Positions 5,805 through 60,011 of a DNA stretch of 64,000 bases are shown here, piece after piece. The position numbers and the translations under genes are program-made. Source of the stretch: Lactarius indigo (lineage: Eukaryota; Basidiomycota; Agaricomycetes; Russulales; Russulaceae); contig JAFKAC010000083.1 in the NCBI GenBank assembly GCA_025766275.1, positions 186,001-250,000 of the forward strand. Direction: 5' to 3'. Every line of letters starts with the position of its first letter. The stretch's first letter is position 1. The notes beneath the pieces are model-generated. The model had not been told where the DNA came from. It saw nothing but the letters and a program-made list of their open reading frames with translations, and searched no databases.

Positions 5805-6442
5805 TTGGGTTGACACATGATCCCCATTCGCCTAACCTTTGCTAAGTTGCCTACGCCTATCATGAGTCCAAGTTGGACTAATGCTGGTGGAGTGTAACAC
5901 AGTGGCATGTCTTTCACTGCAGTCAATTCAGATGGGTGGGCAATAAGATCTGAAGGCCATGTGCATGGCTCCATGCTTGATTTGAGGGCCTGCGCTTGTG
6001 CCTGCACAGATGATTCTAGGGGTGTGGTGGTAGATTTGAGGGCAGATATGGATGATCCGATGGGCAGTATGTTTAATCCATGAGCATGCACAATTTGGTG
6101 TGCAGTCTAAGGTGCAGTCTGTGGGGCAGGAGTTGGGGAAAGGGGTGGAGACATGGATGTGTTTGGATACCAAGTCGGAGATGATGGAGGAAGAGCTATC
6201 AAACAGGGATCAGCCTATGAAGTATGTATTATGAAGGAAATACTGTACTTGGCTCATTCTCTTCATCATCGTCATCTCTGTCACCACCATTGTCACCGCC
6301 ACCATCACCATTGTCATTGTCAAACTCCTGCTCCGAGTCCCACTACATCACGTCCTCCAGATGATGGCCAGAGTCACCATGGAAGTCAACATTGTATGCA
6401 CCTGAGTTGTCCTCTTGATTTTCCTTGTTGCCTGTACCTGAT
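5805..6442. other. unassigned region
   Basis: No coding frame is supported here. A short trinucleotide-like run rich in CAT, CAC and CAG lies at about 6255-6330. Confidence 0.5.
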
Positions 6443-6494
6443 CTAGTTAAGACAAGCTCTTAGTCTGAGAGTGAATTCTTGGACAACATCAGAC

Positions 6495-7055
6495 TCACTG
6501 GAGATAAAGCTGGGCATGGTGTGCCTCTGAGACAGCAAGTGACAGTATATTCTTTGGCTTTGTTTTGTGTTGCTTCTGGGCCTTGAACTGCAAATTCCAG
6601 ACTTTTTGCATACCATCTTTCTCAGATTGAGACAGACAAATTGTGATGGGGAAGTCATCCAGAGATTGGATGCAATGTTGCCCTCGGAAGTGTGCATAGA
6701 GACTGTATGTCCATACAGCAGGACTATTGTCAGGACAATGGGGGCAGATAACTGGAACATTTGAGCAAGGAGATGCCTCAGAAGAAGTGGAGGCAGTTGT
6801 GTAGTTGAAATGTGTCATATTGACACATTTTGACTTCTTGTGGTCCACTGAGACCCTTCCAGCAGCTCCGCGGGCCTTCCTTAGGTAGATCTGGCACATT
6901 GGAGCAGGGAAAAGACACAGCCCACAGAGCTCTTTGGAGCTATCAAGCAGACCATCATGTAGGATGTGTGCACCCATATGTTCAAGGACGCATTGTCCAT
7001 TCTTCCAGTTCACTGTCAACCCACATCTTGAACAGCCTTGACTGTTTATTTCCAA
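6495..7055 (-). CDS. Cys-rich zinc-finger-like protein, C-terminal part (hypothetical)
   Basis: This 186-residue frame contains regularly spaced Cys/His pairs: CSRCG near residue 8, then HMGAHILHD, CGLC followed by C in PMCQ, and a second cluster CPHCPD followed about 20 residues later by HFRGQHC. The spacing suggests two zinc-binding units. Agaricomycete genomes carry many proteins of this general type, often in repeat-rich DNA, but I cannot assign a function. It lies between two gypsy LTRs, and upstream exons may be missing because the next LTR starts about 90 bp upstream of its first codon. It may be a truncated gene. Confidence 0.5.
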   Translation of the reverse strand: MEINSQGCSRCGLTVNWKNGQCVLEHMGAHILHDGLLDSSKELCGLCLFPAPMCQIYLRKARGAAGRVSVDHKKSKCVNMTHFNYTTASTSSEASPCSNVPVICPHCPDNSPAVWTYSLYAHFRGQHCIQSLDDFPITICLSQSEKDGMQKVWNLQFKAQKQHKTKPKNILSLAVSEAHHAQLYLQ

Positions 7056-7145
7056 GTAGTTGGTCTATGTTTTGTCACAGACAAAGCATGCCATCCCTAA
7101 ACAAAGTCACTACATGATAATAGCTAATATATGGTCCTGACATAC

Positions 7146-7734
7146 TGTTATGAATTCTTTACTTTTGGACTCGTTTCTTTCTCACTTTACTTTTCCTTTC
7201 CTGACATCCCACAAGCCCTGTACAATTATATGGACTTTACAATCATCTGGTTCCTATCGCACGCCCTGCTTATCGACGATCTCTTTTGATAAAGCTTAAC
7301 ATGTGCTAGTTTCCATTCCCTTCTCACTCATGCACAAACCCGCATGATTCACCCTTGTTCCAAGTATATCCATGCCTTGTTCCAATTATGTCTCTTCTTT
7401 CGTCTCTCTATCTGGCGATGGCGCCATCTGTTTGTAATGGCCACATAGTCCACATTTGTATTTAACCCTAGCTCTACCTAGCTTGTATGGTAGACTAGAC
7501 TTCTTGTGTAAATACTACACTCATCTAAACACAGAACACCTTTGTGCCTTTCCTGTCTCGCAAACCCCATCTTTGCTAGGTCTTTGCACCTTAGCTTCCC
7601 TCTATAGTCCAAGTGATTTACATCCTTGTGACTCTTGTGCATCATCCTGCTGAAGTCAAGCCTTTGAGCTTGTACTACTGAGCATCGACTGACTTGGTAC
7701 AGGTTGTACCAAACGCCCCTGTAGTGGCATTACA
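7146..7734 (+). repeat. 5' LTR of copy C (589 bp)
   Basis: It begins TGTTATGAA and ends GGCATTACA. A TATA-like TATTTAA lies near 7459. The 11-mer AGACTAGACTT at 7492-7502, about 33 nt downstream, is exactly complementary to AAGTCTAGTCT at 7737-7747, which starts 2 nt after the LTR. This places the putative transcript start at 7492 and the primer-binding site at 7737. No second copy is in the window, so the boundaries rest on the TG...CA rule and analogy with the 463-bp LTR. Confidence 0.8.
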
Positions 7735-7761
7735 TTAAGTCTAGTCTCCCAGCTGCACACT

Positions 7762-9393
7762 GTGGCTCTCACAAGCCAAAGCCAAACCCAGTTTGTCTGG
7801 GAATACCTGGAACAACACCCACAAGATGACCTCTGACCCTCAATCAAAGGAACTGCCCTTTGGAGGAACACCCCACATGACGAAGGGTACTACATCTACA
7901 ACCCTGACAAGCTCACATACGAACCAATCAAATACATTGAGGACCAACATATCTGGGCCTACGTCGCCTATTCAGACTTGAAACACTCTTGGTATTCATA
8001 CAAGCCAGTCCCCACACATCTAGGGTTGGGACCAGGAAAAGGCCATATCCAAGCCATCGACGCTGATTCAGACGTTGAAAAACCCAACTCTGCATCCAAA
8101 GATAATCCCACTCTTACCCCTACAGTTCAAAGACCAGTTGACTTCGCTTCATATGCCAACATGTCCGCAATGCAACTCTTGACCACCCTCACCAGTACTC
8201 AACCCTCAGGAAGCTCTCAGCCTGCAGGATCCACCTCGACGGCCAATCCTTCAGGTAGTGGAGGACATCCTCTGGGAGGAAGTATGCCAGCAAGCAGAAG
8301 CAGCCCTTCAGGAAGCACAGGAGGCCATCATGGAAGCGGTGCACCTGGAGTTGGAGGCGGTGTGCCTGGAGGTGGAGGAGGTGTTGGCAGTGCCACTGCC
8401 ATGGCAGGAGGAGCTCCACCCCCAAATGGATGACTCAGCAGGAACCCACCCCCAGAATTCACCAGAGACTGAGAAACCAATCAAGCATTCCTCAATGCTT
8501 TCGCCCTTTATCGAGGAATGAACCCAAACATCCAACAACTTGTACTCCCCTACTTGCAAGCCATGACCCTACTCCCATATATCAGAGGACCATTGGTGGA
8601 CGATTGGGTGGAAGAACAAATCCAATGGCTGGTAGATCAACTAGCTGGAGGAGTAGCGATGAACACCGAAAATCTATGGAATACCATAGAAAAACACTTT
8701 ATTCAAGCATACACCGATACCACCCAACAGCAGAAAGCATGACACACTATCCAAACTCTCCAAATGGATAAAGAAGACATCGACATGTACATTGCCAAGT
8801 TTTCCAACTTGGCAAATAAAGCAGGATATAACAAAGATGAAGCCACCGCCCTAGAAACTTTCCAGAAGGGACTGCCAGGGGTGCTTGTGGTCAACACAAT
8901 CAAGTTCCATCATCTGATAACATGGGAAGATTGGAAGGCAGCAGTCACCTTCCAACAAGCCGAATACCTCCTCCTCAAGGATAAACTCACCAAAGGAAGA
9001 GGCAACAAGAAGGGAGGAGCTTCCCAGGATCAGTGGCTGTCCACACTAAGCAAAACCAGAGATCCCAATGCAATGGATGTTAGCCGCACCTGAGCCTGTG
9101 CTGCTATGACAGACAATGAAAAGAAGCAGCTCCAAAAGGAAGGAAGATGCTTCCACTGCCGTGGGCAAGGACACATCTCACGTTTCTGCCCCCAGAAACC
9201 AGCAACAACTGCCAAGGTCATGGACACCACTGCCCCAACCACAGCCACCATTTCTATGACAGCTTCACAACCACTCTCAAATGAAGAACAAGCAGAGGCG
9301 CAAGTCACCACTTTATTTGCCCAAAGCCCTGAAGTCCGCAAGCTTATGGTGGACAAACTATTTGGACAGAAGAAGGATTTTCTCAACGCTTGA
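7762..9393 (+). pseudogene. gag: gag of copy C, broken
   Basis: The Gag frame can be followed from a GTG at 7762, aligned with the GTG that opens gag in the complete element, through FVWEYLEQ. After an in-frame TGA near 7834 it continues through a conserved N-terminal domain (GYYIYNPDKL, then WAYVAYSD). A Gly/Ser-rich linker follows, then a capsid-like region shifted between frames (FSNLANKAGYN, FQKGLPG). A CCHC zinc knuckle (CFHCRGQGHISRFC) lies near 9150. There is no ATG between the putative transcript start and about 7825. The lesions make it non-functional. Confidence 0.85.
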
Positions 9394-9485
9394 ACCTGGT
9401 GGCCTGGGCTAAAGCTCTTAAACTTAGTGTGTATACTAGCAGATTCTGATCTATGTGAATTCCAGTTCTTTTCAAATCTGTGCAC

Positions 9486-10282
9486 ATGATGGCTGAACAA
9501 AATGTCCTAATCGATTTGGGAGCCACAGACAACTTCATAAGTATGAATCTCCTGAAATGGCTCAAAATTGCCTGGTTACCCACAGAGAGATCCATCAAAA
9601 TATGGAATGTGGATGGAACCCACAATCAAGGAGGAGAAATCACCTCCTTCACAGACCTGACTGTACGAACTGGAAGCAAAACCCAAAATCTCCGATTCCT
9701 TATCACTGACCTAGGAAACAACAAGGTTATCCTAGGATACCCTTGGTTCACAGCATTCGAGCCAAAGTTTCATTGGCAGGACGCCACTATTGACGAAGAA
9801 TTTCAGCCAGTCGTAGTCACCAGCCTCAATTTGTCAGATGAAGCCATGCCTATGGAATCTACCATTAAGGCATTGGAGACGTATCAACTTGATGAATTGG
9901 CTTGGGAACAACTAGAACGAGAAGATGACCTGCATGTCTGACTGTGCAAAACCACCACAGCTTTGGAGCTGGCCCAATGAGAAGCGGCTAAGAAACCCCA
10001 AAGAACCTTTGAAGAAATAGTCCCCAAAGAATACTGGAAGCATTGAAAGGTCTTCAGTGAAGAAGCATCACAGTGATTTCCCCATCAAGAATGTGGGACC
10101 ACACGATCGACTTAATTCCTGATGCCCCCAAAACCATGGACTGCAAAGTGTATCTGTCAACAATCCTGGAGACTGAAAAGCTCTCAGAGTTTGTTACCAA
10201 ACACTTAGAAAAAAAAATATTCAACCATCAAAATTGCCCTATGCATCCCTGTTCTTCTTTATCAACAAGGACAGGAAGTTAC
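9486..10282 (+). pseudogene. pol: pol of copy C: protease and start of RT, truncated
   Basis: The aspartic protease domain is recognisable (IDLGATDNF, then RFLITDLG and ILGYPWF), but the catalytic triplet reads DLG instead of DSG. Downstream frames are interrupted by stops at about 9940. Further on, the RT N-terminal region can be recognised by comparison with the complete copy (MWDHTIDL, DCKVYLS, PYASLFFFINKD). The gene ends where the LTR at 10283 starts, so RT lacks its catalytic residues. Confidence 0.85.
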
Positions 10283-10555
10283 TGATGAACAGCACACATG
10301 GAGATGATACTCACAGTGACAAAGGAGACTGTGGTGAGATATCAAGAGTGGCTGGAAGCAGAGGTGAACAGGGTGAGTTGCAGGTGAAGCAAGAGAGTCT
10401 GGCACACAACAGTGAGGGAACTGATGTGGACCAGGAGCGTACAAGCACTACTACTTATACTATACAGGAGGGTGACACAAGTACAAGAGAAGTAACATAG
10501 GGTCACAGAATACAAGAGACGTTGTTCTACATGTGGGACAAAGGAGTGTGCTATG
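10283..10555 (+). repeat. 5' fragment of LTR family L2
   Basis: It starts TGATGAACAGCACACAT and matches the first ~270 bp of the solo LTRs at 12275-12890 and 20675-21296, including CTGGCACACAACAGTGAG and the block ending GACAAAGGAGTGTG. Similarity stops near 10555. It interrupts the RT of gypsy copy C, so L2 inserted after that element. Confidence 0.8.
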
Positions 10556-10799
10556 TCGCAAAATCCTGGAGCACCTTATAATTGAACTGGCTTATAATTA
10601 AGATTGTAAGGTAATTTCAAGGCATTATTAAGGTCTTAAAAGCACATTAGAAGCACGTTGCTTGTAATTATAAATATCATAAGACTTACCAACAATTACA
10701 AGCTATCATAAGACTATCATAAGGGAGACAACGTATTATAATAAAGTCGCACGATTGAGAAGGTACATTATAATCAAATTATAATTGCCAGAGGGCCCT
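10556..10799. other. AT-rich segment
   Basis: AT-rich DNA with repeated TTATAATT and ATCATAAGAC words, lying between the L2 fragment and the SCC3 relic. No gene is supported; the repeated TATAATT words hint at a small decayed transposon. Confidence 0.4.
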
Positions 10800-11720
10800 C
10801 AGAATTCTTTGAACATCTCGTTGTTTCTGCCACTGAGATTGGCGTGCTATATATTACGACGGATGTGATGGCAATCATCCAAACTTGGATTACTTGCATG
10901 TCCTCATCACAATGTGTTTTTGATATACAGCTAATACTGTCGTTGCTCTAGAAATACTGATGTCGCTGCTTTTGTAGATAAGGAGGCTGGTGTCCTGGGT
11001 AGGCAAAGGGCTGGGGAGAAGAAACGTACAGCGAGAAACAAGACCATGGCCACCACTAGCCGAGAGAAAGAGCCGGAGAATAGAGCGGTAGAGGTGCGCA
11101 AGTGGAAAACAAATTTGGCCAAGTTCTTGAAGGAGCTCGTAGATAGGTACACGCTTTGTTCATTGAGATCGGTTGGTTTTCCTACATGAGCAATTCCATC
11201 GCATTTTCATGAACCATTATCGTGATCTGGACCCATCTATTCATGCGGAGTGCGTTCGTTCCATCGGTTTATGGTTCAAAAATACCCTGGCCACTTCCTT
11301 GACGGCATGTATCTTCGCTACGTCGGGTGAGTCCTCTCGGATTCTAATACTTAAGTCCGTCTGGAGGCTGTCAAATCACTCTCTGGCGTCTACGAGAACA
11401 CGGACTACATCAGATCCATACAGACCTTCACAGAACGATTCAAGCCTCGTCTTGTCGAGATGGCGGTGTGGGACACGGAGCTCGCTGTTCACGTTGCTGT
11501 CATCGGTGCTGTCGCTGCGCGTCGACTACTCGAGGATGAACAGCGTGAGAAACTGTGCATACTTGTTTTTGATGAAGACGCCAAGGTCCGCAGGGCTGTT
11601 AGTGAGTTCGTCAGAGGCGTGTGGGCCGAAATCGTTGAAGAGATGCTGGGGAATGGCAAGGGCAAGCAGGAGCGCACACGCACAGGGGTCAAGGCGACAA
11701 AAAAGTCGACATTAGTAATA
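10800..11720 (+). pseudogene. SCC3: cohesin subunit SCC3/STAG, pseudogene fragment
   Basis: Joined frames match the STAG region of the cohesin subunit Scc3/SA. Recognisable blocks in order are YITTDVMAIIQTWITCMSSS (about 10845), DVAAFVDKEAG (10960), KWKTNLAKFLKELVDR (11100), HRIFMNHYRDLDPSIHAEC (11200), the YLRYVG and VLSDSNT blocks, VRLEAVKSLSGVYE, and FDEDAKVRRAVSEFVRGVW (11570). Lesions are evident: frameshifts near 10950 and near 11277 (a run of five A where six would keep frame), TGA where the family has Trp just after YLRYVG, and TAA after SDSNT. One intron at about 11150-11193 still has GT and AG. Start and most of the C-terminus are absent. Scc3 joins the Smc/Rad21 ring and is normally essential, so a functional copy presumably exists elsewhere. 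Confidence 0.85.
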
Positions 11721-12269
11721 AGCGGACGTTGGCACTGCGCACGGTTTCCCGACTAGACAAGCGCCAACCATCATCGGTTTTCCTTCGTCAACCACTGATC
11801 ATGAACCCCTCGAATACACGTAAACGAGAGCAGCTCCCAGACACCCCACGAAAGCGTCGACGGATCGTGTTGAATGTCGGTGAGTACTCGCACTCGAATC
11901 TGCAGGGAAGGCGAATTGGCTGACTCGAACCTCGCCTAAGTGGACCCTGGTCCTGTTGCTCCTGCGGCCCTCCCGCCACCGCCGCCGCCTCCCACCCCAG
12001 TTCAAGAAACTGACCCACCCCAAGGCGATTCTCCATGCGGATGTTTGATCTCACCCGTGCCAGAGCGCAACAATAGGTGGGTCTTCTGCGCTTGCCTGCT
12101 GTCCCAGGCTGACTCTCCCTCCATCAATTTGACAACTCCTGCACGTCAGATCTGTGTACGCGTTCGTGGGCAGCAGGAATGGGGAATAACAACCCTTAGC
12201 AATAGTATAGTGAAGTTGGATTGTTCGTAGTTGGATGGAATGCGCACGCGTTTGGGTGTCTTTATGGTT
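11721..12269. other. unassigned region
   Basis: Short frames with basic (TPRKRRRIVL) or proline-rich sequence follow the SCC3 relic. They could be remnants of exons, but no family is recognised. Confidence 0.4.
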
Positions 12270-12274
12270 TCTGC

Positions 12275-12890
12275 TGATGAACAGCACACATAGATAGCTT
12301 ACTCACAGAGGGACAAAGTGTTCTGTGGTGAGACAAGCTGGGTGGCTGGAAGCAGCAACAGGAAAGTCTAGCAAGGTAAAGCAAGGTGTCTGGCACACAA
12401 CAGTGAGAGAACTGATGTTGGTATTACAGAGGAGGAGACATACCTGGCACACAACAGTGAGAGAACTGATGTGGACCAGGAGCGTACAAGCACTACTACT
12501 TATACTGTACAGAGGTGTGACACTAGTACAAGAGTGGTAACGTAGAGTCACAGAATACAAGGAGCGTTGTTCTACATACAGGACAAAAGGAGTGTATGAA
12601 AAGAGAACAAGGCGACTAGAACAAAGAGAGTCCAGACAAAGATGATATCATAATGACATCACAATAAAGATAAGAACTAAAGAAGAACAAAGGACTGAGT
12701 ACAATGAAGTGTTCGGAGTGTTCTACATGATGTCATAGTACATGATGTCATACATGACGCAATGATCAGCGCTAGATTGTACAGATCAAATGTAAGTAAT
12801 CTACAAGTCCATTTAATCTAATCTAAAGCAGTCCATGCTGCAAGTCCGGTCCGTATGAGCCGCTAAGTGCGCAAGGGTCACTTATCAACA
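12275..12890 (+). repeat. solo LTR of family L2 (616 bp) with 5-bp target duplication
   Basis: It begins TGATGAACAG and ends TTATCAACA. TCTGC occurs immediately before (12270-12274) and after (12891-12895), an exact 5-bp target-site duplication. The same sequence recurs at 20675-21296 with its own duplication, and 5' fragments lie at 10283 and 60175. No internal retroelement DNA is present, so it arose by LTR-LTR recombination. Confidence 0.93.
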
Positions 12891-12895
12891 TCTGC

Positions 12896-13558
12896 CTCCC
12901 TGTGAGGTACCCCCCTTTACGCCTGGCTCAGATGTGTTCTCGTTGATGTGCGGTGACGTTCGATCAGTTCCTGTGGAAACTGCGTGCGTGCTCGCGAAAG
13001 GTTGTCTGGGAGGAGGCGGTATGTTACGTGGGGTGTTGATTGTTAGCACTGTTGACACGTTCCGTGGCAAAATGTACCTCTTTGCGGGATTGGGCTAGCT
13101 CGTGTTCCAGTTCCATGCACAACTGGCTAAGATCCGCATTTGCCATGCTTAATTTGGCGACTTCGGCAGTGTACCTCACCTGATGGCTTCAAGGACATGC
13201 TCGGCAAACTCACCGCGAGCGTCACGGAGGCCAAGGAGGTACCGCCAGATATCCCGTGAGACGGCGGAGCGTGTGGGGTACCAGCGGGACTCGGTGTGGA
13301 CCCCCCAATTCTGATGAATGCTAGCAGATGTGATGCGGCATCTCTCGTATGGCCTTCTGCACGTTCTTGCAGAGTTGGCGTATCTTGGGCTTCTGCTTAC
13401 CATCGGAGAAATCTCTGGCGGCGGCTGGTCTCAATACCCTAAGAGCACGATTGCGAACTTGGTTGTCGTTCTGCACAAGTTTTCATCAATGATGATGACC
13501 ACTTAGATCGATTTTTCATTACTGTCGACAAGAGAGTGGCTATTTCGGTTCAGAACAA
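12896..13558. other. unassigned, possible decayed minus-strand coding remnant
   Basis: On the minus strand a short frame around 13040-13150 reads like a coiled coil (MANADLSQLCMELEHELAQS), and a Ser/Pro-rich frame lies at 13200-13330. Stops separate them and no family is recognised. Confidence 0.35.
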
Positions 13559-16500
13559 TTAAACAACTAACCAGTGAAAGCATACCGTGACGAAAGCATT
13601 AGCCAATGAAATATGAAATGGATAAATGAGTCTTACCTTGTACATTAGTCTCCGATGTAGTAGTCCTAAGAGGGGAATAAGCCAAATGGGATCAGATGTA
13701 ATATAATTGCAAATACATTGCTGTTCGAATATTTCGTTACAACGAATGAATAGGTTGCCGCTGTGGTCAATGACATCCATCACGAAGTAGTCACCAGACA
13801 TATTATCGAAGGTTTGAATGAGTGGCGCACCATGCACAATTGACTGCGCAAAAAAGAACTCTGTTGATGACTTGGAGCGGAGACGACGAAGCCTCAAATT
13901 GACATCCTTGGACCGTGGTTGGCTTGCGGCATCAAGGGGGCACACCAGGCAAATAGGGAATGTATAATCTGCGACTGAGGTGGTGAATATAAACAGAAGC
14001 TCCGCAAAAATGAACCCATTTGTTGTCTTGAGAATAATGAAATCGCATCTCTCGAGGCCATGGAATCGCGGGCTACAATATAGGTAGTCCAGGTATTGTT
14101 TCCAGTCGACCATCGATTCATAACATACTTTCATCGACCTGTATTCCGTGATCTTAAAAGGCTATGAGCCAAAATACCAGATTAGATGCGAAACTCACCT
14201 TGTCTTCAGCCTGAAATTCAACGCGCATACAGCCTGGTGCAAAAGTGAAGTCATACAATGGCATTGTGTTAGTCAACCATGCCGCGAGCCTCACATGGAA
14301 GTTCCTGAAAGTCTTATTTTGAACCCCCAGGGCTTCAAGAGCCCCAAATGTGACAGGAGACTGTCGTGATCGCAAAATAACAGCCCCGGCATCGAACGTC
14401 GACCTTCTCTTTTGACATGATGGACCATCTTGTACTGGGGGTTCTACGGAGGAACCAATATCTTGTTCCTGAGTGCTCCCCAAAGCGTCGCATCCAATGT
14501 CATCATCGTTCGTCGCCGCCTCACATATAGCTGCGTCGAGTTCGTTGATTTGTTCCCAAATCAACACTGCAATGAGCAAAGTGTGTTCGTGTTTTAAGAT
14601 CTATTTTTGAGAGATCATCACAAATTGAATAGATAAAGATAAGGTATGCGACGAACCTGAGATGCAACACGCTTGAAATTGGTCCGATTTAAGTACAGCT
14701 TCCTGAGGAAGCCATGCATCTTCTCATTTGGCTTCATATTGTAGTTACGTGAGGTACCTTTCGCTTCGATATCGTCGAAGCTGTGGACCAACGCGTGCAT
14801 CTTGGGGAAGTTCCAGTTTTTGGCTGTGGTTTTACTCTGCGGATCCTCCTCCAATTTATTACATAATTCAGTATACTCCTGCTAAATAGATCAGTACCAC
14901 CGGATCATCAAAAGAGATTGAGTACCTTCATGAGGGTCCCAAACCTCTCTAGTTCGCTCCGCCCAGCCAGAATCGTCTCCTCCGTGTGTACCTCTAAAGA
15001 TAGAAGTAAATCCAAGATGGAAAAACTTCGCAGGCAGAGTAGTAACTTCCACTCTTCTTTATCTTTGTCTGGGGGAAAAAGGTTGTGTGCAGCAAAGACC
15101 ACAACCTGAGTTTGTCAGTCGATGAGATGAGGCCGCATATAATTGACACACCTTGGATATATCCTCGTTCTTCCCACCGTCTGTAAAATCCACATGCATC
15201 ACTTCAGAAAAGTGATTTAGACCACGCCAGCGGGGCGCAAGATTGAACCTGAGGGAGTGGAGTGAAGTTAGCGCTGGGACATTGACTTGTATGAGACGGT
15301 AAATAGTATAGTACTGTTGTTCGAGTTTCGTTGTGGCAGCGCGGCCTATTAGGGTATCCTTAAAGAGACCCTTGAACCTCTTCCATAAATGATTCCCGAA
15401 TATGCCATTATTGTTCGCGTGAAGCCTGTCAAATGATAACACGCGATATGGGTCGGAATTGTTGACATGCCAGAACACATTCTAGACCCACCGTTACACA
15501 TAATTAATGGACAAAATAATCATGAGACTCACATTGACATCACGAATCCCATATCTAGAGAAATGGTGCTTGCGACCCCTCTTGTCGAAGGTTCTCCCTT
15601 CTTCAATAAGTTCCCGCATCCGTTCCATTGTCCTCAGTGGCCAAGTTTGTGAGACATCAGCGAGCTGGTGGTCGGGGACGAAACAAATCGGGCAGGGCAT
15701 TTTTCCACGAGCACCCTGGATTAGAGACATAACGCACCTAATACATTGGGGTCAGTCAATTCAGGCGGTGACAGAGAATAAAATATGTATTACTGTTCTT
15801 CATAGTTGGCAGATAATGTGATGACGCCAGGGAAAAATTGCTGTTGGGTGCCATCAGCACACTGAAGCCAGCAGCCCACCTTAGATTTGTCGACAATGGA
15901 TTCGATTATGTAGTAAAATGCACAATGCCAGACCTCGCGTTTGAAGTTGGTGAATTCGGTCTTCCCAGAGCCCTCTGCAGTTTCCCGGATCTAGAATGAG
16001 TGTTACGGTGCAATATCAGATACTTATTAACCAGAGAACTTACATCCGGCAACCACCCGATAATGCGCCCACCGCCAACGCCGCTATTGCGATTCCGAAT
16101 CTCAGCTGGTAGATTCGCACAGCGAGCGATCACTGGGTAAGCTTTTTCTGTGCCAAAGCTTGACAGCTTCGACTTATCCGCATAAAGGATGAAGCATAGC
16201 GGGCGCGCACCCTTGGGGATCCCGGACTACAACGATAATTTGTTCAACAACAAAAAAGGTATACGGACTCGACTGTTACAAGGGATAAATAGTAATATGC
16301 GTACTTGAAAGTTCCAGAACGAGCCCGCGGTCCAAGGCTCGTCATATACACGAGAGATATTCTCCCCGTCGTGCTTAAAAACCTTCTGCGCGTCCCATTC
16401 GAAATATTGGGTCAATTGCGGGTCCATGATGAGGTCGACTGCCCAGTCCCATAGTGGACGATAAGGTATCTCAAACGTCCGATCCACACCATCGTAAGGG

Positions 16501-23321: not shown

Positions 23322-24967
23322 AATTATATATGGACGAATTATAACTAGGTTCATGGTTCACAGTGGGTTCTGATTGGAAATTTGACTTAGGGTTACCATG
23401 TATATCCAAATAATGACTCTTCATTTGACCATCATGGTCAAATGCGGGACCATTACTTGGCCCGCGTTTGTCCATAATGGTCAAACGCGGGCCTGTATAG
23501 GCACACTGGACATGCCATTCAACTCGAAATACAATAAAACATATACTTCGAGTACAAACATGACCATAGGCCTTCATTGATACAGATAGACTTTGGAGGC
23601 CCGCATTTGACCATGATGGTCAAACGCGGGGCCATTACTTAAAGTGTAGTTATATAGTATGGGTCTCTCTGGTCTTGTTATCTGACCTCCTGGAGTGGAA
23701 TTGATTGATTATACATTGGGGTTATATTGTGTCTTCATCTGTTACCAGGGAACTATTTGCTATGTGGAGTTGGGGGTTATATTGTTGTTAAGTAAGGTAG
23801 AAAAGGTGTGATGTTATGTTGACAGCCTTTATAACTTGCAAGGTCAGGTAGTAATATTGGTGATAGTCTGTGTTCTATTAGGGAATCATATCTGTGAGAT
23901 GTGCATAAGGAGATTTCCATTATCTGTGACCCATTTGTAACATATACCAATGGCAGGCACAATGTGCTGCTCTGTATAGCATGGATTGCTCGCACTGCTC
24001 GCTCTCCGGCATACAGAGCAGCACATTGTGCCTGCCATTGGTATATGTTACAAATGGGTCACAGATAATGGAAATCTCCTTATGCACATCTCACAGATAT
24101 GATTCCCTAATAGAACACAGACTATCACCAATATTACTACCTGACCTTGCAAGTTATAAAGGCTGTCAACATAACATCACACCTTTTCTACCTTACTTAA
24201 CAACAATATAACCCCCAACTCCACATAGCAAATAGTTCCCTGGTAACAGATGAAGACACAATATAACCCCAATGTATAATCAATCAATTCCACTCCAGGA
24301 GGTCAGATAACAAGACCAGAGAGACCCATACTATATAACTACACTTTAAGTAATGGCCCCGCGTTTGACCATCATGGTCAAATGCGGGCCTCCAAAGTCT
24401 ATCTGTATCAATGAAGGCCTATGGTCATGTTTGTACTCGAAGTATATGTTTTATTGTATTTCGAGTTGAATGGCATGTCCAGTGTGCCTATACAGGCCCG
24501 CGTTTGACCACCATGGACAAACGCGGGCCAAGTAATGGTCCCGCATTTGTCCACCATGGTCAAATGCGGGCCAAGTAATGGCCCCGCGTTTGACCATGGT
24601 GGACAAATGCGGGCCAAGTAATGGCCCCGCGTTTGACCATGGTGGTCAAACGCGGGTCAAGTAATGGTCCCGCATTTGACCATCATGGTCAAACGCGGGC
24701 CAAGTAATGGTCCTGCATTTGACCATGATGGTCAAACGCGGGCCAAGTAACGGCCCCGCGTTTGACCATGATGGTCAAATGCGGGCCAAGTAACGGCCCC
24801 GCGTTTGACCATGATGGTCAAATGCGGGCCAAGTAATGGTCCCACATTTGTCCATGGTGGTCAAATGAAGAGTCATTATTTGGATATACGTGGTAACCCT
24901 AAGTCAAATTTCCAATCAGAACCCACTGTGAACCATGAACCTAGTTATAATTCGTCCATATATAATT
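23322..24967. mobile_element. foldback (palindromic) element, copy A, about 1.65 kb
   Basis: The ends are long inverted repeats: AATTATATATGGACGAATTA at 23322 and its complement ending at 24967, continuing through about 110 bp per side. The centre is a second, nearly perfect inverted repeat with arms at about 23464-23978 and 24011-24527 around a 33-nt spacer, so identical short ORFs appear on both strands. Between inner and outer repeats on the right lies a 43-bp tandem array. No protein is encoded. A partial second copy is at 58632-60011. The left and right boundaries show TA-rich sequence, so the exact target duplication is ambiguous. Confidence 0.9.
24497..24868. repeat. 43-bp tandem array, each unit a palindrome
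   Basis: About eight or nine 43-bp units, each holding a near-perfect inverted repeat of about 30 bp of the form CCCGC(A/G)TTTGACCATGATGG with its complement, separated by a linker like ACCATTACTTGG. Variants alternate TTTGACC with TTTGTCC, and GCATTT with GCGTTT. The left arm of the same element holds only about two units. Confidence 0.92.
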
Positions 24968-40032: not shown

Positions 40033-40495
40033 TGTTACGGTTTCGCCTCGGACCCTTACTGTACCGGTTGTGGCTACGGCTGTAAGGTATATTAGTCACG
40101 GACTCGGGGTTTACGGTAGGAGTTAGGCGTTGAGGGATGACTCGATCCTAGTACAGGTAGTAGTAGTATTAGGATTGCGGTACTTACGCGATACGTTGGA
40201 CGCTACGATACGGTGACTCATAGCAGCGCTTGAAAGCCTGCTCTTCTTGTATTTAAGGTAGCTGCGGAAGACCAAGATACGCCATCTTGGTCTTCTTCAA
40301 TCGTCACTTCAAACCTCTTCCATTCTCATCTCTAAAGACGCGCCTTCCATCAAGGGAAGAGCCTTATCCGAATCCTAGTGTCTGCGTACATCTAGAACCC
40401 GCCTTCGAGCCATACGCCTTTGCGCGTGATCAGCTAAGTCATAAGAGTCGCCTTAAATCGAGCTCAAGTCGAGCTAACGTCGTGACGGCGTTACA
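40033..40495 (+). repeat. 5' LTR of copy B
   Basis: TGTTACGG...GCGTTACA, 463 bp. It contains the TATA-like TATTTAAG, a perfect hairpin at 40267-40295, and no ATG downstream of the putative transcript start at 40284. Confidence 0.97.
40249..40294 (+). promoter_or_regulatory. LTR core promoter, putative transcript start and self-primer
   Basis: GTATTTAAGG at 40249-40258 is a TATA-like box. The 11-mer ATCTTGGTCTT at 40284-40294 lies about 34 nt downstream. It is the right arm of a 12-bp hairpin and exactly complements the segment AAGACCAAGAT at 40498-40508. In the diverged copy C the equivalent 11-mer (7492-7502) has the same distance from its TATA box. The transcript start itself is inferred. 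Confidence 0.65.
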
Positions 40496-40497
40496 TT

Positions 40498-40508
40498 AAG
40501 ACCAAGAT
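40498..40508 (+). other. primer-binding site for self-priming (11 nt)
   Basis: AAGACCAAGAT starts 2 nt after the 5' LTR and pairs perfectly with 40284-40294. No tRNA 3'-CCA complement (TGG start) is at the LTR edge. In Tf1/Tf2 of fission yeast the first 11 nt of the mRNA fold back on the same position to prime reverse transcription. Confidence 0.75.
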
Positions 40509-40515
40509 ATCCATT

Positions 40516-42507
40516 GTGGCGACTGTTAACACCCGAGAACAGTGGACGAGCTTCCGTCCTTATCATTTAGACCGGAGAGGAGACCGTAACGTACCAACCC
40601 GATTCTTAGGAGCAGCCAGGTGGAGAGATCGAGGAGACGAAACCGGATATTTTGTGGAATTCAACGGACCTACGAGGTTCAGACCTGTTGAGTTCAATTT
40701 TGATCACCTGTGCTGGGTGGAAGTTACGTGGAATCCTATAGACCACCGCTGGGACGCCGTTAGGCCAGCAGGAAGACAATACCAGTGCGACATCGACGCA
40801 CGCGAACTCAATTCACGAGCCGACTGGGGCCCCATTGACGGCCAGCTACGGGAACACTCAACTGGAGAAGCAGTTAGTGAGGAAACTGAAGAGGACGAAC
40901 AAAGCGAAGAAAACCGACCTGCAAGTGTCGGGCCTATCGAACAATATACTATCCAACGAGCTGAGTCCCTGCACATCTCAGAACAACCAGAAGTCATTCA
41001 CGTACGATCACCGGCAGCAGAAATGGCAACCACCACTATGACAGCCGAAGAAATTATAACAGTTAGGGAACAAGCGGCGCGAGAAGCGGCCGAAGCCATT
41101 AGACAAGAATCACAGCGGCATCTTATGCCTATCAACCCTGAAACAGGGCACCGTATGACTGCAGACGACGCAGCAATCTTTCGGGCCATTGGACCCGACC
41201 AAGGAGACCCCCCATCAGGGGATGGAGGGAGACGAGGAGTACCGTTGGACCCCCCACCGGGATGGGGAGGACCACCCGGAGATGACTTCCCCCGACGTCC
41301 AGGAAGAGGAGGAAACCCGCCTGACCTCCCGAACAACCCACCAGAAGGAGGACCCCCGGGAGGGGGAGGAGGCGGTGGTGGAGGAGGAGCAGGGGGCGGA
41401 GGCCAAGGACATGAAAAACTAACCGGTGAACCTCCCACCATCTTTGACGGCGATCGTACTAAAGTGGATTCATTCCTCACACAATGGCATGTCTATTGGG
41501 GGATGAACCTCGACACCCCTGTCATGCGCAACGACTACCGACGGAGCCTCTTGTTTCTGTCTTATATAAAAGGGGTATCAGTCAGCGAATGGGTACTTTC
41601 GTACCTCAAATGGCTCAACCGGCAGATACAACGAGGGATAGACCAGCACACGCGCGATCTGTGGAACGCAGTGGCAGAGGGATTTAACCAAAGGTTCGTC
41701 AACACCCTCGAACGCGAACAAGCTCAAGCGCTTCTTAGAAAAGGGCTCAAGATGGTTGACGGAGATATTGACAAGTACGTCAACGAGTTCGAAGAAGCCG
41801 CCAGGAAGGCCGGATACCGTCTCAATGACCCCCAAACAATCGACCTCTTTACCAAGGGGTTGCCCAAGAAACTTTACGAAAAAACCTACGATTTGGACGA
41901 GCCGGAGACATTCGATGAGTGGAAGCGGGCGACGCTCCGGAGGCAGCGCAATTACATCCACATCCGTGCGCGAGTGGATGAGTATAAAGACAACAAGCCC
42001 AAAAAGACAGGAAACGCCGGATGGACCGTCCCCCAGAATCTCGCCAACCCATGGGCAATGGACACCTCCACTGACCGAACCAAGGCACGACTAGCGGGAT
42101 CGGAAGAGATCGATTATGGCAAGCCACCATATACTAACTCACCCCCCTTCCCGCCGAGAGGAGGGCCAGGAGTCCGGGGTCGAGGAAGGGGAGGGTCGCG
42201 ACGAGACCTAAGGACGGTGTTGTGTTACAACTGTAACGCGCCAGGCCATCTCTCACGAAATTGCCCCCATCCTAGGCAGCCGCGACAGTGGCAACCACAG
42301 AACCCCGGACCCTCCAGTGTCCGGATGACGGAAACCGACTACTACGCACAGGAATCGCCGCCAGCCCAGATACAAGCTGCCTCAACCAGCAAAACCGCCG
42401 AAGAACGTGCCAAAGAATGGCTCACCGGAGTCGCAAACGCGCCCGACGAAGTAAAAGACCTGATATTGCAGGATCTGTGGGGAAAGGAGGGTTTTCAGAG
42501 CGCCTGA
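40516..42507 (+). CDS. gag: Gag polyprotein, probable non-AUG start
   Basis: The frame runs from about 40486 to TGA at 42505-42507. The first ATG anywhere after the putative transcript start is at 41023, in frame. The 170 residues before it (WTSFRPYHLDRR, GYFVEFNGPTRF, LCWVEVTWNPIDHRWD) are conserved in diverged copy C, so they are coding. I place the start at GTG 40516, which has A at -3 and G at +4 and is matched by GTG at 7762 in copy C; ATT at 40513 is an alternative. After the N-terminal domain come an acidic linker, a Pro/Gly-rich stretch (residues about 235-300), a capsid-like helical region (FDGDRTKVDSFLTQW, FNQRFVNTLEREQA, LFTKGLPKKLYEK), an RG-rich stretch, and a CCHC knuckle at residues 570-583 (CYNCNAPGHLSRNC). 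Confidence 0.88.
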   Translation: MATVNTREQWTSFRPYHLDRRGDRNVPTRFLGAARWRDRGDETGYFVEFNGPTRFRPVEFNFDHLCWVEVTWNPIDHRWDAVRPAGRQYQCDIDARELNSRADWGPIDGQLREHSTGEAVSEETEEDEQSEENRPASVGPIEQYTIQRAESLHISEQPEVIHVRSPAAEMATTTMTAEEIITVREQAAREAAEAIRQESQRHLMPINPETGHRMTADDAAIFRAIGPDQGDPPSGDGGRRGVPLDPPPGWGGPPGDDFPRRPGRGGNPPDLPNNPPEGGPPGGGGGGGGGGAGGGGQGHEKLTGEPPTIFDGDRTKVDSFLTQWHVYWGMNLDTPVMRNDYRRSLLFLSYIKGVSVSEWVLSYLKWLNRQIQRGIDQHTRDLWNAVAEGFNQRFVNTLEREQAQALLRKGLKMVDGDIDKYVNEFEEAARKAGYRLNDPQTIDLFTKGLPKKLYEKTYDLDEPETFDEWKRATLRRQRNYIHIRARVDEYKDNKPKKTGNAGWTVPQNLANPWAMDTSTDRTKARLAGSEEIDYGKPPYTNSPPFPPRGGPGVRGRGRGGSRRDLRTVLCYNCNAPGHLSRNCPHPRQPRQWQPQNPGPSSVRMTETDYYAQESPPAQIQAASTSKTAEERAKEWLTGVANAPDEVKDLILQDLWGKEGFQSA

Positions 42508-42605: not shown

Positions 42606-45600
42606 ATGGCCGACATAAAAGCATTGGTGGACTCGGGAGCCACCGACAACTTCATACACCCGAACTTCATCAAAAAGATGGGTATAGGGGTCCAGCAACT
42701 GACCCGACCGCGAAAAGTCTGGAATATAGACAGTACGGAGAATAAAGCTGGGTCCATTACTCACTTCACCGATCTGGATGTATACGCCAATGGGTACCAC
42801 AGAACCATGAGATTCCTTATCACAAATCTAGGAAACGAAGAGGTTGTCCTGGGATATCCTTGGTTGGCAACTTACGAACCAACCATTAATTGGAGAGACG
42901 CGGTCATACACGAGGAGGTCATGCCGGTCGTGATCAGCACACAGGACAGTCTGGACCGTCACACCGTCATCGCGACCACCCTAACTAACGATGAAAAAGA
43001 GGCGATAGCCCTTGAACTAGACGAGGAGGACACGTACTTGCGAGCAACTACGTCCACAGAATTGGCCATCCAGGCCAAAGGAGAAGAAAAGCCCGTAGAA
43101 CTGCCGGCAGTCTACCACGCCTTCCAACAACTCTTCAGCGAAGAAGCGTCACAACGATTCCCCCCCGCAAGGCCGTGGGACCACGCAATAGACTTCAAGC
43201 CGGGGACCCCTTCAGCAATAGATTGCAAAATATACCCATTAACGCAAGAAGAAGAAGGGAAGCTCAAGGAATTTCTGGACGAGAAACTACAGCAGGGATA
43301 TCTGCGACCCTCCATATCCCCGTACGCATCATCGTTCTTCTTTGTCAAAAAGAAGGATGGAAAACTACGCCCCGTACAGGACTACCGCACCATCAATTCA
43401 TACACAATACGGAACCAATATCCACTTCCCCTAATTCAAGACCTCATTTACGACCTCAGCAACGCCCACATCTATACGAAGCTCGACATCCGTTGGGGAT
43501 ATAATAATATCAGGATACGAGACGGTGATCAGGAGAAGGCGGCCTTCAAGACCAAGTTTGGCCTTTTTGAGCCAACGGTGATGTTCTTCGGTCTTACCAA
43601 CTCGCCGGCAACCTTCCAAACGATGATGAACCACATCTATCGTGATACCATCGCGAAGCACGAACTCCGTGGAACCGTTATCCGTGTCTACATGGACGAC
43701 ATTGGTATCGCTACACGGGAAAGCGCTACGACCGCTGACCACATAGCCGCGGTAACAGACGTTCTTCGCGTCGCTCAGGAGCACGATCTCTACTTCAAGC
43801 TTGAAAAGTGCCTTTTCCATCAACCTCGGATGGATTACCTGGGGGTAATCCTTGAAAAGGGGGTAACACGTATGGACCCGGTAAAAGTTCGCGGCATCAA
43901 AGACTGGCCGACACCAACCAAGGTCAGGGACGTGCGGTCATTTTTGGGTTTCTGTAACTTTTACCGCCTTTTCATCCGAGGTTTCGCAACCCATGCACGA
44001 CCACTCAACCGGTTAACGAGGAAAGATGCCGAGTGGAACTGGGGAGACGATGAAGAGCGAGCCTTCAAAACCCTCAAACGACTCGTAACGGAAGAACCGG
44101 TACTAGCACACCCCAACTTACAAGACCAGTTCGAGTTAGAAGTCGATGCGTCAGGATTCGCGGTAGGTGCAGTACTCCTACAAAAGAAAAATGACGGTCG
44201 CAAGCATCCTATAGGATACTATTCGGCAACGCTGAATGAAGCGGAGCGAAACTACGACATTTACGACCTAGAACTTCTCGCCATCGTCAAAGCCCTTCGT
44301 CACTGGAGACCTCTGCTCGCAGGGTCTCCACACAAGATCAAAATATTCTCAGATCACCTAAATCTCCAGTACTGGAAAACCCCGCAGAAGATCAGTCGAA
44401 GGGTCACTCGAGAAGTGCTAGAATTGATGGAATACGACTTCGAGATCCATCACATCAAAGGAAAGAACAATGGCAGAGCGGATGCGCTATCACGACGGCC
44501 AGACTACAACCAGGGAGAGGGAGACAACCAAGGTGTGATCGTCTTACCTCCGGAGGTATTCATACGAGCCACTAATGCTGCACGCACGTTGGAAACACAT
44601 CCGATGATGCAACCGCCGAGGCGACGACAAGACCCCGCCATAATCAAGACCTGGGTCGATGCTCATCGCCTCAAAAAGATAGAAGGGGAGTGGTACAAGG
44701 ACGGACGACTGGTGGTCACAGGACCCATGACAGCATACCGGGCCATTATACAAGACCATCACGACCCACCGGTACACGGACATCCTGGAATAAGCAGGAC
44801 ACAACGGATCGTAGAGCGACACCATTGGTGGCCGAGTATTCGCCGGGACGTGTATGAGTACGTTACAGGATGTGCTGACTGTCAGCGAATCAAAGTCAAT
44901 ACAAGACCAACTCGCGCACCATTACACCCAATCACCGCTGCCAAGGACGCCCCTCCCTTCCATACTATTGCCCTTGACTTCATCACCAAACTACCGACCT
45001 CACAGTCGTACGACAGTATCTTGACCGTTACTGATCACGATTGCAGCAAAGCATCCATATTCATTCCCTGCAATGAGGAGATCACAGCAGAGGAAACCGC
45101 CATTCTGTACGTCAACCATGTGTTCAAACGATTCGGATTACCGCGTAAAATTATTAGTGACCGAGACCCCCGGTTCACCTCTAAATTCACACGAGAGATA
45201 TGCCGTATACTGGGCATCCAACAGAACATCTCTACGGCTTACCATCCACGCACGGACGGACAATCAGAACGGACCAATCAGTGGCTTGAACAATATCTAC
45301 GATTCTGGGCCAACGAGCGTCAAGATAATTGGGCAGCGTATCTCCCGATAGCAGAATTCGCTCACAACAATTGGCCCCACGAACACACGAAACAATCGCC
45401 ATTCATGCTTTTGATGGGGTACAACCCGACCGCCGATTGGACGGATAAGCCATCTCCAATCCCGAATGTAATCACCAGACTGACACAATTAAAGGAGGCA
45501 CGCCGGCTTGCCCAAGACCTTATCAAAAAGGCACAGGATAGCTGGGTTCGGCATAAAGATACTCCACGCTATCAAGTTGGCGATCAGGTGTGGCTGGAGG

Positions 45601-47230
45601 GAAGGCATCTACGGACCAATCAACCCACAGCGAAATTGGCGGCGCGACGCCACGGACCATTTAAAGTGGTACAGGTGATGTCCCCATACAATTACCGCCT
45701 CGAACTTCCCACGCAGTGGAGCATCCATCCAGTGTTTCACATCGATCTTCTCACGCCGTACAAACATACGGCCTTTCACGGCGAAAACTTTCCACGACCA
45801 CCGCTGGATCTTGTGGAAGGAGAGGAGGAATACGAAGTCGAGGCCATTCTGGACTCGCGGCATTTCGGCCGCCGCAAGAAAGCTCCAGTACCTCATCAAA
45901 TGGAAGGGTTATTCGGACTCAGAGAACCAGTGGGTCGATGAAAATGACGTATTCGCACCAGACGCGATCAAGGCGTATCAGGAAGGCCGGACGGGTGTAC
46001 GATCTCTTAAAAGCCAGCCCACGAACGACCAAGGAGAGTATCATTCCTACCTCCGATCCACTCAGACGTCTATGCCCACTTCTCCTCTCAGACATGTCAC
46101 CACGGCGATCCTCCTCGACCAAGTCGCACAAGACGCCGCCAACCTCATCGAAGACGACGAAGAAACCGTGGTTCAGCAGGTCCAGCTCACTCCGTACACA
46201 CCTGCAAACATGCGAGCAGGGCATATCACCGCTCAAGAATGGGCTAGCGTCCTACAGAGGTTCCCCGACCCGACTCACCAGCCCGACGACGAGCAGCAGC
46301 ATGCCGTCGCTCACATCTTCAGAGACGACAACGGCAATCGAGAACCCGTTGCCATTATCCCCCCAGGTGACGACCTCATCGGCACGAGGGGAATTCTCCC
46401 CGCCGATCGTCCCCTCGAAGACCCAACAGGAGTTAGAAGCAGCGGAGGACTGGCGGAGAGTGGCGAAGGAGTGGGCCGACGAACAACTGCGCTTAGCGCA
46501 GAGGAGATTGAGCGAGTTACGGCAGCGCAGGCAGCGCTCCCTAACGACGATGCTCACGCTGACGACGAAGATTACTACCCGGTCAGACACCCCCTCCTTC
46601 GAACGCACAGCCACCCTACTAATCCCCGAATCACCCCATGGCTCGTTCACACCGACGGAACCCCCATGTCTCGAGGACGTGTGCGACTGCCCGGCGTCGC
46701 ACTTCACACCCCCATTACGCACGACGACGATCCCGCGCAGGTCCTTGCGCCTGAAGGGTTCAGGGCGAATCGACAGCCCCATTACATTCACTTCCCCATC
46801 ACCGGACCCGACGGCGTAGAGAGGAACGCCAGTCATGTTCAGATTGTCGGAGGTGCGAACCCTTTCATACTAGGACTCATCCCCGGCTCTCCCCATCTCT
46901 ACGGCAAACCTCTCTACGCCTTCCCGATGCTATCGGCTGCGGGACGCGCCTTCATCGCCCACGAGGATCTAGTTATCCTCGCCTCCGACAAGATCACGGA
47001 CCGCGCCCTGAACCGCATTGGAGACGAGTCCTCTGACTGCGGAGGTGACGCGTTATCGAGCAGCCGCATACGAAGAAGAACGGCTTGCGGCTCGCATTCG
47101 CCAGCTCCAGGCAATGCGACTGTCAGCAAGGGACGACAAGCAGGACTGCATCTACCGCTTGGAGAGGGCTAACGTCTTTGAGCGGATTAGCGACGAGCAG
47201 TCTACATGGACGGCGAGGGACTTTCGGTGA
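42606..47230 (+). pseudogene. pol: Pol polyprotein, broken by two single-base insertions
   Basis: From ATG 42606: aspartic protease (VDSGATDNF, residues 8-16), RT (KKKDGKLRPVQDYR, catalytic YMDDIGI near residue 361), RNase H (LEVDASGFAVGAVLL near 510), integrase zinc motif (HHDPPVHGH...CADC) and integrase core D791, D852, E888 with the expected D-35-E spacing. The frame breaks in the chromodomain: GCAAGAAAGCTCC at about 45875-45887 has one extra A compared with copy A, so Pol ends at 45941 in the wrong frame. The original frame can be followed again from 45811 on in another frame through the extension. A second extra base (GAGTCCTCTG at about 47028-47037, copy A GAGTCTCTG) shifts it again before the C-terminus at 47230. 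Confidence 0.93.
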
Positions 47231-47260
47231 GTCTGGGGACTCACGCTGAAAAGGGGGTGA

Positions 47261-47723
47261 TGTTACGGTTTCGCCTCGGACCCTTACTGTACCGGTTGTG
47301 GCTACGGCTGTAAGGTATATTAGTCACGGACTCGGGGTTTACGGTAGGAGTTAGGCGTTGAGGGATGACTCGATCCTAGTACAGGTAGTAGTAGTATTAG
47401 GATTGCGGTACTTACGCGATACGTTGGACGCTACGATACGGTGACTCATAGCAGCGCTTGAAAGCCTGCTCTTCTTGTATTTAAGGTAGCTGCGGAAGAC
47501 CAAGATACGCCATCTTGGTCTTCTTCAATCGTCACTTCGAGCCTCTTTCATTCTCATCTCTAAAGACGCGCCTTCCATCAAGGGAAGAGCCTTATCCGAA
47601 TCCTAGTGTCTGCGTACATCTAGAACCCGCCTTCGAGCCATACGCCTTTGCGCGTGATCAGCTAAGTCATAAGAGTCGCCTTAAATCAAGCTCAAGTCGA
47701 GCTAACGTCGTGACGGCGTTACA
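47261..47723 (+). repeat. 3' LTR of copy B
   Basis: 463 bp, with four transitions relative to the 5' LTR (three in the block at 47538-47548, one near 47690). At those sites the 5' LTR agrees with copy A's LTR, so the changes occurred in this LTR. The hairpin is at 47495-47523. Confidence 0.97.
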
Positions 47724-58631: not shown

Positions 58632-60011
58632 ATTATATATGGACGAATTATAACTAGGTTCATGGTTCACAGTGGGTTCTGATTGGAAATTTGACTTAGG
58701 GTTACCACGTATATCCAAATAATGACTCTTCATTTGACCACACATGGACAAATGTGGGACCATTACTTGGCCCGCATTTGACCATGATGGTCAAACGCGG
58801 GGCCGTTACTTGGCCCGCATTTGACCATGATGGTCAAATGCGGGACCATTACTTGGCCCGCGTTTGACCATGATGGTCAAATGCGGGACCATTACTTGGC
58901 CCGCGTTTGACCATGATGGTCAAATGCGGGACCATTACTTGGCCCGCGTTTGACCATGATGGTCAAATGCGGGACCATTACTTGGCCCGCGTTTGACCAC
59001 CATGGTCAAACGTGGGGCCATTACTTGGCCCGCATTTGTCCACCATGGTCAAACGCGGGGCCATTACTTGGCCCGCATTTGACCATGGTGGACAAATGCG
59101 GGACCATTACTTGGCCCGCGTTTGTCCATAATGGTCAAACGCGGGCCTGTATAGGCACACTGGACATGCCATTCAACTCGAAATACAATAAAACATATAC
59201 TTCGAGTACAAACATGACCATAGGCCTTCATTGATACAGATAGACTTTGGAGGCCCGCATTTGACCATGATGGTCAAACGCGGGGCCATTACTTAAAGTG
59301 TAGTTATATAGTATGGGTCTCTCTGGTCTTGTTATCTGACCTCCTGGAGTGGAATTGATTGATTATACATTGGGGTTATATTGTGTCTTCATCTGTTACC
59401 AGGGAACTATTTGCTATGTGGAGTTGGGGGTTATATTGTTGTTAAGTAAGGTAGAAAAGGTGTGATGTTATGTTGACAGCCTTTATAACTTGCAAGGTCA
59501 GGTAGTAATATTGGTGATAGTCTGTGTTATATTAGGGAATCATATCTGTGAGATGTGCATAAGGAGATTTCCATTATCTGTGACCCATTTGTAACATATA
59601 CCAATGGCAGGCACAATGTGCTGCTCTGTATAGCACGGATTGCTCGCACTGCTCGCTCTCCGGCATACAGAGCAGACATTGGTGCCTGCCCATTCGGTAT
59701 ATGTTACAAATGGGTCACAGATAATGGAAATCTCCCTATGCACATCTCACAGATCGGATTCCCTAATAGAACACAGGACTATCACCAATATTAATACCTG
59801 ACCTTGCAAGTTATAAAGGCTGTCAACATACATTACACCTTTTCTACCTTACTTAACAACAATATAACCCCCAACTCCACATAGCAAATAGTTCCCTGGT
59901 AACAGATGAAGACACAATATAACCCCAATGTATAATCAATCAATTCCACTCCAGGAGGTCAGATAACAAGACCAGAGAGACCCATACTATATAACTACAC
60001 TTTAAGTAATT
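58632..60011. mobile_element. foldback element, copy B (right part missing)
   Basis: The left end ATTATATATGGACGAATTAT and the following 90 bp match copy A at 23322. A 43-bp array and the inner inverted repeat (arms about 59114-59630 and 59665-60011) follow. The right arm stops after CTTTAAGTAA at about 60010, where copy A continues into its array and outer repeat, so this copy is truncated. Small differences from copy A lie near the centre. Confidence 0.88.
58731..59145. repeat. 43-bp palindromic-unit array in copy B
   Basis: About nine or ten units; TTGGCCCGC starts at 58810, 58853 and 58896 confirm the 43-bp period. Here the array is in the left arm, whereas in copy A the long array is in the right arm. 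Confidence 0.92.

Follow-up and report, generated by a model that had tools for sequence, protein, structure and literature searches.

Retrotransposons in the window

The window, the whole 64-kb stretch of DNA analysed here, carries on its forward strand the two Ty3/gypsy-type retrotransposons designated copies B and C. Copy B is bounded by two LTRs of equal length that differ at 4 of 463 positions, and GAAG stands on either side of the element as a probable target duplication. The features of copy B are as follows.

40033..40495, + strand: 5' LTR, 463 bp, TG...CA
40250..40256, + strand: TATA-like box TATTTAA
40268..40278, + strand: repeat of the PBS 11-mer within the presumed U3, with a possible hairpin to the R start
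40284..40294, + strand: putative self-primer ATCTTGGTCTT, the presumed R start as placed by its distance from the TATA box; invariant in 21 copies
40302..40307, + strand: R arm of a second duplex, CGTCAC, paired in 21/21 copies
40482..40487, + strand: U5 arm of the second duplex, GTGACG
40498..40508, + strand: putative PBS AAGACCAAGAT, 2 nt (TT) past the LTR end at 40495
40516..42507, + strand: gag frame (Retrotrans_gag, CCHC zinc knuckle)
42606..45941, + strand: pol frame (protease, RT, RNase H, integrase, SH3_Tf2-1)
45811..47172, + strand: chromodomain-bearing frame, in a frame different from pol
47249..47260, + strand: purine-rich tract AAAAGGGGGTGA, assigned by sequence and adjoining the 3' LTR
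47261..47723, + strand: 3' LTR, 463 bp

The domains of the pol frame follow the Pfam order protease, RT, RNase H, integrase, which is that of Ty3/gypsy elements. A Tf2-1-like SH3 domain (PF24626) follows the integrase core with 61.3 bits (cut-off 30), and the chromodomain (PF00385) scored 38 bits (cut-off 25.1) in its separate frame; in relatives such as P0001 the chromodomain shares one protein with RT and SH3. P0001 was also the best of the 120 relatives listed for the RT-integrase part of copy B, with 72% identity over 99% of its length. A named relative among those listed comes from the mushroom Lyophyllum shimeji (46%) and is labelled 'tf2 155 kda protein type 1-like'. The PDB search gave Ty3 (7q5b) as the nearest solved sequence and beyond it only RT or integrase chains of retroviral or other origin, and an IMG/VR scan with the pol protein returned no relative.

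The gag frame of copy B is open from close to the PBS, and its first in-frame ATG is residue 170, counted from the GTG at 40516; gag may use a non-ATG start codon or start elsewhere. Another LTR matching that of copy B lies at 2610-3072. A B-type LTR match with a PBS was found 7.2 kb upstream of it, outside the window (C274:181606), and positions 1-3072 are probably the 3' part of a further B-family element.

Copy C is diverged from copy B, with 40.7% identity in the protease part. Self-comparison of positions 5000-15000 detected no second LTR for it. Its features are as follows.

7459..7465, + strand: TATA-like box TATTTAA
7492..7502, + strand: putative self-primer AGACTAGACTT, the presumed R start as placed by its distance from the TATA box
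7514..7519, + strand: R arm of the second duplex, ACTACA, paired in 29/30 copies
7720..7725, + strand: U5 arm of the second duplex, TGTAGT
7737..7747, + strand: putative PBS AAGTCTAGTCT, after TTACA-TT, with the LTR end at 7734

Complementary pairs in the window

The original prediction held that in both copies the 11 nt next to the LTR are the exact complement of an 11-mer downstream of the TATA box. Both pairs were recovered at these positions and with these letters: 40498-40508 with 40284-40294 in copy B, and 7737-7747 with 7492-7502 in copy C. The spacing was also as described: each PBS begins 2 nt past its LTR, and the upstream 11-mer lies 34 nt (B) or 33 nt (C) past TATTTAA.

The whole window was scanned blind on both strands, taking every k-mer 0-2 nt past any ACA and searching for its complement 100-420 nt upstream, with a TATA-like box required 31-38 nt before that complement. 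At 11 nt, exactly two pairs were obtained on the + strand, those of copies B and C, and no pair on the - strand. Reverse, complement and direct controls at 10 nt gave 0, 0 and 0 matches on the + strand and 0, 0 and 1 on the - strand. The sole other 10-nt match of the scan (24118/23861, found from the - strand too) lies inside a long inverted repeat.

The window also contains arrays of a 43-bp repeat at 24366-24966 and 58640-59240, situated inside a pair of long inverted copies separated by about 34 kb, whose arms measure 857 nt and are 97% complementary.

Elements sampled by integrase domain

A sample of elements was drawn from the genome through their integrase region, independently of LTRs. 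The PF24626 search listed 150 integrase matches, from which 20 were picked with preference for long frames and varied scores, and the 2.2 kb upstream of each was fetched without consulting the LTRs. A complementary pair of at least 10 nt directly after an LTR-type end was present at 15 of the 20 loci. The TATA box was in place at 14 of these 15; at the remaining one (L107) its position falls beyond the fetched piece. With a 10-nt threshold, the reverse, complement and direct controls scored at 2, 2 and 3 of the 20 loci; lowering it to 9 nt gave 5, 2 and 5, and none of the control matches had a TATA box in place. As this control is not built into the sampling, it is these 15 of 20 loci that allow the statement that such elements generally hold a pair.

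Five loci had no pair at the expected place (L097, L094, L089, L103 and L106). L097 at first gave an apparent match; it proved to be an F4 element on the opposite strand, the same place as L161 of the F4 set described below, and stands outside the 15. At L094 the LTR is interrupted, as judged by eye, by a reversed B-type LTR. Nothing was recognised in the 2.2 kb upstream of the integrase at L089, L103 and L106.

The 15 positive loci comprise L099 and L102, both of family C, together with representatives of five further families, F3-F7. The pol protein of copy B is 37-48% identical to the 150 listed integrase loci where the match covers at least 378 residues, including 43-46% for F3 (L062, L065, L074) and F4 (L071). 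Identity to L086 was 55% over 357 residues, and higher values came from shorter pieces only.

Families and conservation of the two sites

Together with B and C, the genome thus holds at least seven families of the probable self-priming type, each with a primer/PBS pair of its own. The sequences for the five additional families are given below.

Family F3: primer/PBS sequence AAGCTCGACTT
Family F4: primer/PBS sequence GTCTACTCTT
Family F5: primer/PBS sequence AGCTTTGGCTT
Family F6: primer/PBS sequence AGACTTGGCTT
Family F7: primer/PBS sequence AACTTGTCCT

The presumed primers and PBSs were compared across families in a matrix restricted to two windows, TATA +24 to +56 and LTR end 0 to +16. Primer-PBS complementarity was 10-12 nt on the diagonal for the seven families and at most 7 nt off it, except between the F4 subfamilies, and shuffled sequences reached 9 nt in 2 of 2000 trials. 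The true assignment of primers to PBSs also had the lowest summed duplex energy among all permutations of the seven families (1/5040). Since F3-F7 were found via complementarity itself, both tests are partly built in and speak for the family specificity of the pairs, not for their presence in every element. Positions were constant in all nine rows compared: the PBS arm starts 1-2 nt past the LTR end, and the other arm lies 33-35 nt past the TATA box. The primer ends in CTT in six of the seven families.

These results bear on a trivial origin of the pairs, namely chance, or a duplication in which the PBS copies a palindrome of the LTR. Copy B does offer material for such a reading, as a third copy of its motif lies within the LTR at 40268-40278. 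Copy C lacks a comparable hairpin, its longest U3-R match being 4 nt, and the integrase-sampled loci carry the arrangement far above their controls (15 of 20 versus 2, 2 and 3). Disfavoured by the cross-family matrix as well as by these counts, this origin has a next to negligible probability.

Within families, alignments were made for B, C and F4. For B, 26 of the 40 matches listed reach the PBS, and 20 of the 25 others were aligned with the window copy (mean pairwise identity 0.93). For C, 30 copies including that of the window were fetched and aligned from among the 41 matches listed (0.80). The F4 set consists of 19 others reaching the PBS among the 40 matches listed, together with L092, L101 and L104 (0.78). 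Primer and PBS were invariant in 21/21 copies of B, the pair was kept in 30/30 copies of C (perfect in 29, with one G-U in L023), and all ten pairs were kept in 22/22 copies of F4; these copies were found with DNA queries spanning both sites, so that broken copies are under-sampled, and some are identical to one another (L017-L019), which makes the counts neither unbiased nor independent. In family C, 11 of 350 overlapping 11-mers were fully invariant over the 30 copies, every one of them overlapping primer or PBS (starts at 7490-7498 and 7734-7735). Searches for further copies listed 40 matches for F6 and 41 for F5.

The predicted covariation between primer and PBS was therefore borne out in part. 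Across the seven families the two sites differ together (10-12 nt of complementarity versus at most 7 nt), a result resting on seven between-family comparisons with five of the families found by complementarity. No covariation was seen among the copies of B, C or F4, because both sites are without variation there, the single G-U of L023 excepted, and nothing is left to covary.

Two further observations concern single families. In F7 (L096, L105, L107), the LTR contains two copies of the 10-nt primer sequence at a spacing of 65-67 nt, and only the first copy lies at the usual TATA distance. In F4 (L092, L145-L163, L101, L104), CTACTCT was noted by eye downstream of the PBS in 16/22 rows; it can pair with AGAGTAG in the PBS, and a local hairpin competing with the primer is possible.

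Host tRNAs

Priming by a host tRNA would require either a PBS located further downstream or the use of an internal tRNA fragment. The search of the same genome gave 63 tRNA matches; one gene per distinct score and length was retained, giving 36 genes, among which the labels Met, Pro, His and Asp do not occur. Since mature tRNAs carry a terminal CCA, genes missing from this set leave intact the result that no TGG occurs within 20 nt past the LTR end in any of the nine rows (seven families).

What the tRNA reading can draw on is a TGG 21 nt past the LTR of copy B, where 7 nt match the CCA terminus of a single Ser tRNA, the longest CCA-anchored match obtained, and TGGs at 28 nt in C and 35 nt in F5 with fits of 5 nt. 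A match of 7 nt that includes CCA and lies 21 nt off the LTR is short, however, and in the six remaining rows the first 40 nt are free of TGG. Matches of PBSs to the interior of tRNAs (6-8 nt) were at the level given by random 11-mers. The expectation that no host tRNA would match agrees with this outcome, none of the 36 genes giving a convincing PBS match. With no TGG near the LTR in nine rows and no fitting tRNA in the set, tRNA priming was rejected, and we regard it as very improbable. Self-priming in its place is supported by the family-specific pairs, by 15 of the 20 integrase loci and by the lack of a tRNA-type PBS.

Possible additional leader duplexes

A second potential duplex joins R, a few nucleotides past the primer, to the part of U5 about 15 to 9 nt upstream of the LTR end, with a complement of 5-7 nt. 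It was found in six of the seven families (7/8 rows, with F4 as two rows); F7 has only 3 nt. Permutation of the family assignments matched or exceeded the true pairing in 2/20000 cases by length and 5/5040 by energy (seven families), figures that are optimistic because the windows were chosen after the duplex had been seen in the sequences. One off-diagonal combination, F7 R with C U5 (-13.2 kcal/mol), was stronger than every true pair. An unconstrained search was uninformative (4-7 nt on the diagonal versus 3-6 nt off it), in contrast to the position-constrained test.

The F4 alignment gives a closer view of this duplex, which is whole in 21/22 copies; L104 has one mismatch. The common form is TCCGA/TCGGA (16 copies), and three copies carry TCTGA/TCGGA with a T-G pair. 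Changes on both sides were found in L146 (TCCAA/TTGGA) and L101 (TCCAG/CTGGA), and at the level of the aligned sequences the F4 duplex shows compensatory changes.

A third duplex, downstream of the PBS, is weakly supported by the permutations (1437/20000 by length, 36/5040 by energy). The candidate CTTGTG/CACAAG of the window's copy C has one mismatch in its six pairs in 29/30 aligned copies and was dropped.

In predicted folds of the natural leaders of the seven families, the mean pairing probability of primer with PBS was 0.89-0.99. Among the parts of the 'pretzel' described for Tf1, the central duplex can be drawn from the sequence in seven families and the U5-side duplex in six, and the R:U5 duplex resembles one of the two outer Tf1 duplexes.

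Long R:PBS and R:U5 duplexes would also suit packaging, and the pairing could accordingly be a leader RNA structure for packaging, dimerisation or translation while something else primes. This reading leaves the location of both arms without a reason: in nine rows one arm sits 1-2 nt past the LTR end, at the point from which minus-strand DNA has to be primed if a proper LTR end is to result, and the other sits 33-35 nt past the TATA box, where the RNA 5' end is presumed to lie. We consider a purely structural role quite improbable, and priming by the RNA 5' end the preferred interpretation.

Possible hairpin at the presumed U3/R border

In family B, the 11-mer AAGACCAAGAT is repeated inside the LTR (40268-40278), and this repeat, like the PBS, is able to pair with 40284-40294. 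The result is a perfect hairpin at 40268-40294 over the presumed U3/R border, with a copy of the PBS as its U3 arm. The U3-R complement is 12 nt in B, 7 nt in F4, 7 nt in F6 and 8 nt in F7, and it is short in C (4 nt), F5 (4 nt) and F3 (5 nt). In F4, GAGTAG occurs inside the 35 nt before R in 20/22 copies.

Permutation tests of the U3-R pairing gave 50/20000 by length (F4a and F4b as two rows) and 26/5040 by energy. Mismatched family pairs reach 10 nt in this comparison, and the U3 arms sit at differing distances from R between families. In the B alignment, the U3 arm is altered in 3/21 copies, two of them with a broken pair, and all pairs are standard in 19/21; unlike this arm, the primer and PBS never changed in the 21 copies.

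The U3 arm would be missing from the RNA 5' end but found in the 3' LTR, and could in this way single out the 3' copy of R. A rather doubtful proposal built on this sequence arrangement is that the arm locks the 3'-LTR primer copy in a hairpin and thereby frees only the 5' copy for the PBS. If true, the U3/R lock would be a built-in means of distinguishing both R copies.

Relation to known self-priming elements

Published accounts of Tf1 describe an RNA 5' end of 11 nt complementary to a PBS beside the LTR (PMC10085805, PMC7175516, PMC4600332), and one of them presents self-priming as a common feature of Tf1/sushi elements and two outer duplexes in Tf1 besides primer:PBS (PMC10085805). For Tcn1, a gypsy element of the basidiomycete Cryptococcus neoformans, Tf1/sushi-like self-priming has been proposed (PMC7175516). 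Self-priming is predicted for most Tcn1-clade chromoviruses of mosses and club mosses, and these elements group with Tf1/Sushi (PMC6317226).

As far as these accounts go, Tf1/Tf2 and the Tf1/sushi group (Tj1, Tosmo1-3, Tcry1) resemble copies B and C in their chromovirus domains, in an LTR ending in CA and in an RNA 5' end, presumed in the present elements, that is complementary to an LTR-adjacent PBS. They also have extra duplexes between R and sequence adjacent to the PBS, for which six of the families described here offer a U5-side candidate. Several differences can be named. The host is an agaric mushroom, judging from an RPB2 fragment whose best named matches are Marasmius (93%) and Mycena (89%), with another sequence reaching 97%; this supports a basidiomycete host. 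Family B has a copy of the PBS in U3. Tf1 and Tf2 are described with one frame, whereas copy B has gag and pol in separate frames, and a counterpart of the reported Tf1 duplex downstream of the PBS finds weak support in these families. Tcn1, likened here by its description, is likewise a basidiomycete gypsy element with a self-priming proposal; the moss and club moss elements share the prediction, as their source gives it, in plant hosts. The families described here are very probably additional self-primers of the Tf1/sushi type, by a mechanism that is itself already known. In the open-licence literature, which most subscription journals fall outside, we found no title on a primer/PBS comparison across the families of one agaric genome.

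Proposed mechanism and significance

Judged from sequence, copies B and C are, with a probability of about 0.9, chromovirus-type Ty3/gypsy elements that start reverse transcription from their own RNA, as Tf1 does. Transcription would begin at the 11-mer, as its distance from the TATA box suggests, which would make the 11-mer the RNA 5' end. Folding of the leader would then pair this end with the PBS, RNase H would cut after about nucleotide 11, and the freed 11-nt RNA would prime minus-strand DNA. During plus-strand synthesis the primer RNA would be copied, and every new PBS would be a copy of the R start. Recopying of the PBS from R in each cycle would explain why primer and PBS stay matched while the families drift. 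If Tf1-type priming holds, copying would uphold the match whether or not selection acts.

At least seven lineages with different putative primers in a single genome amount to a set of natural mutants for a mechanism established on a yeast element. The fixed parts are the site 1-2 nt past the LTR, the CTT end of the primer (6/7) and the R:U5 duplex at its set place (6/7), and what drifts across families is the letters of the primer. A single mutation in R would suffice to change the primer, provided that every cycle makes the PBS anew from the primer RNA. The set of families in this genome makes it testable how a primer that is bound to match its target can change.
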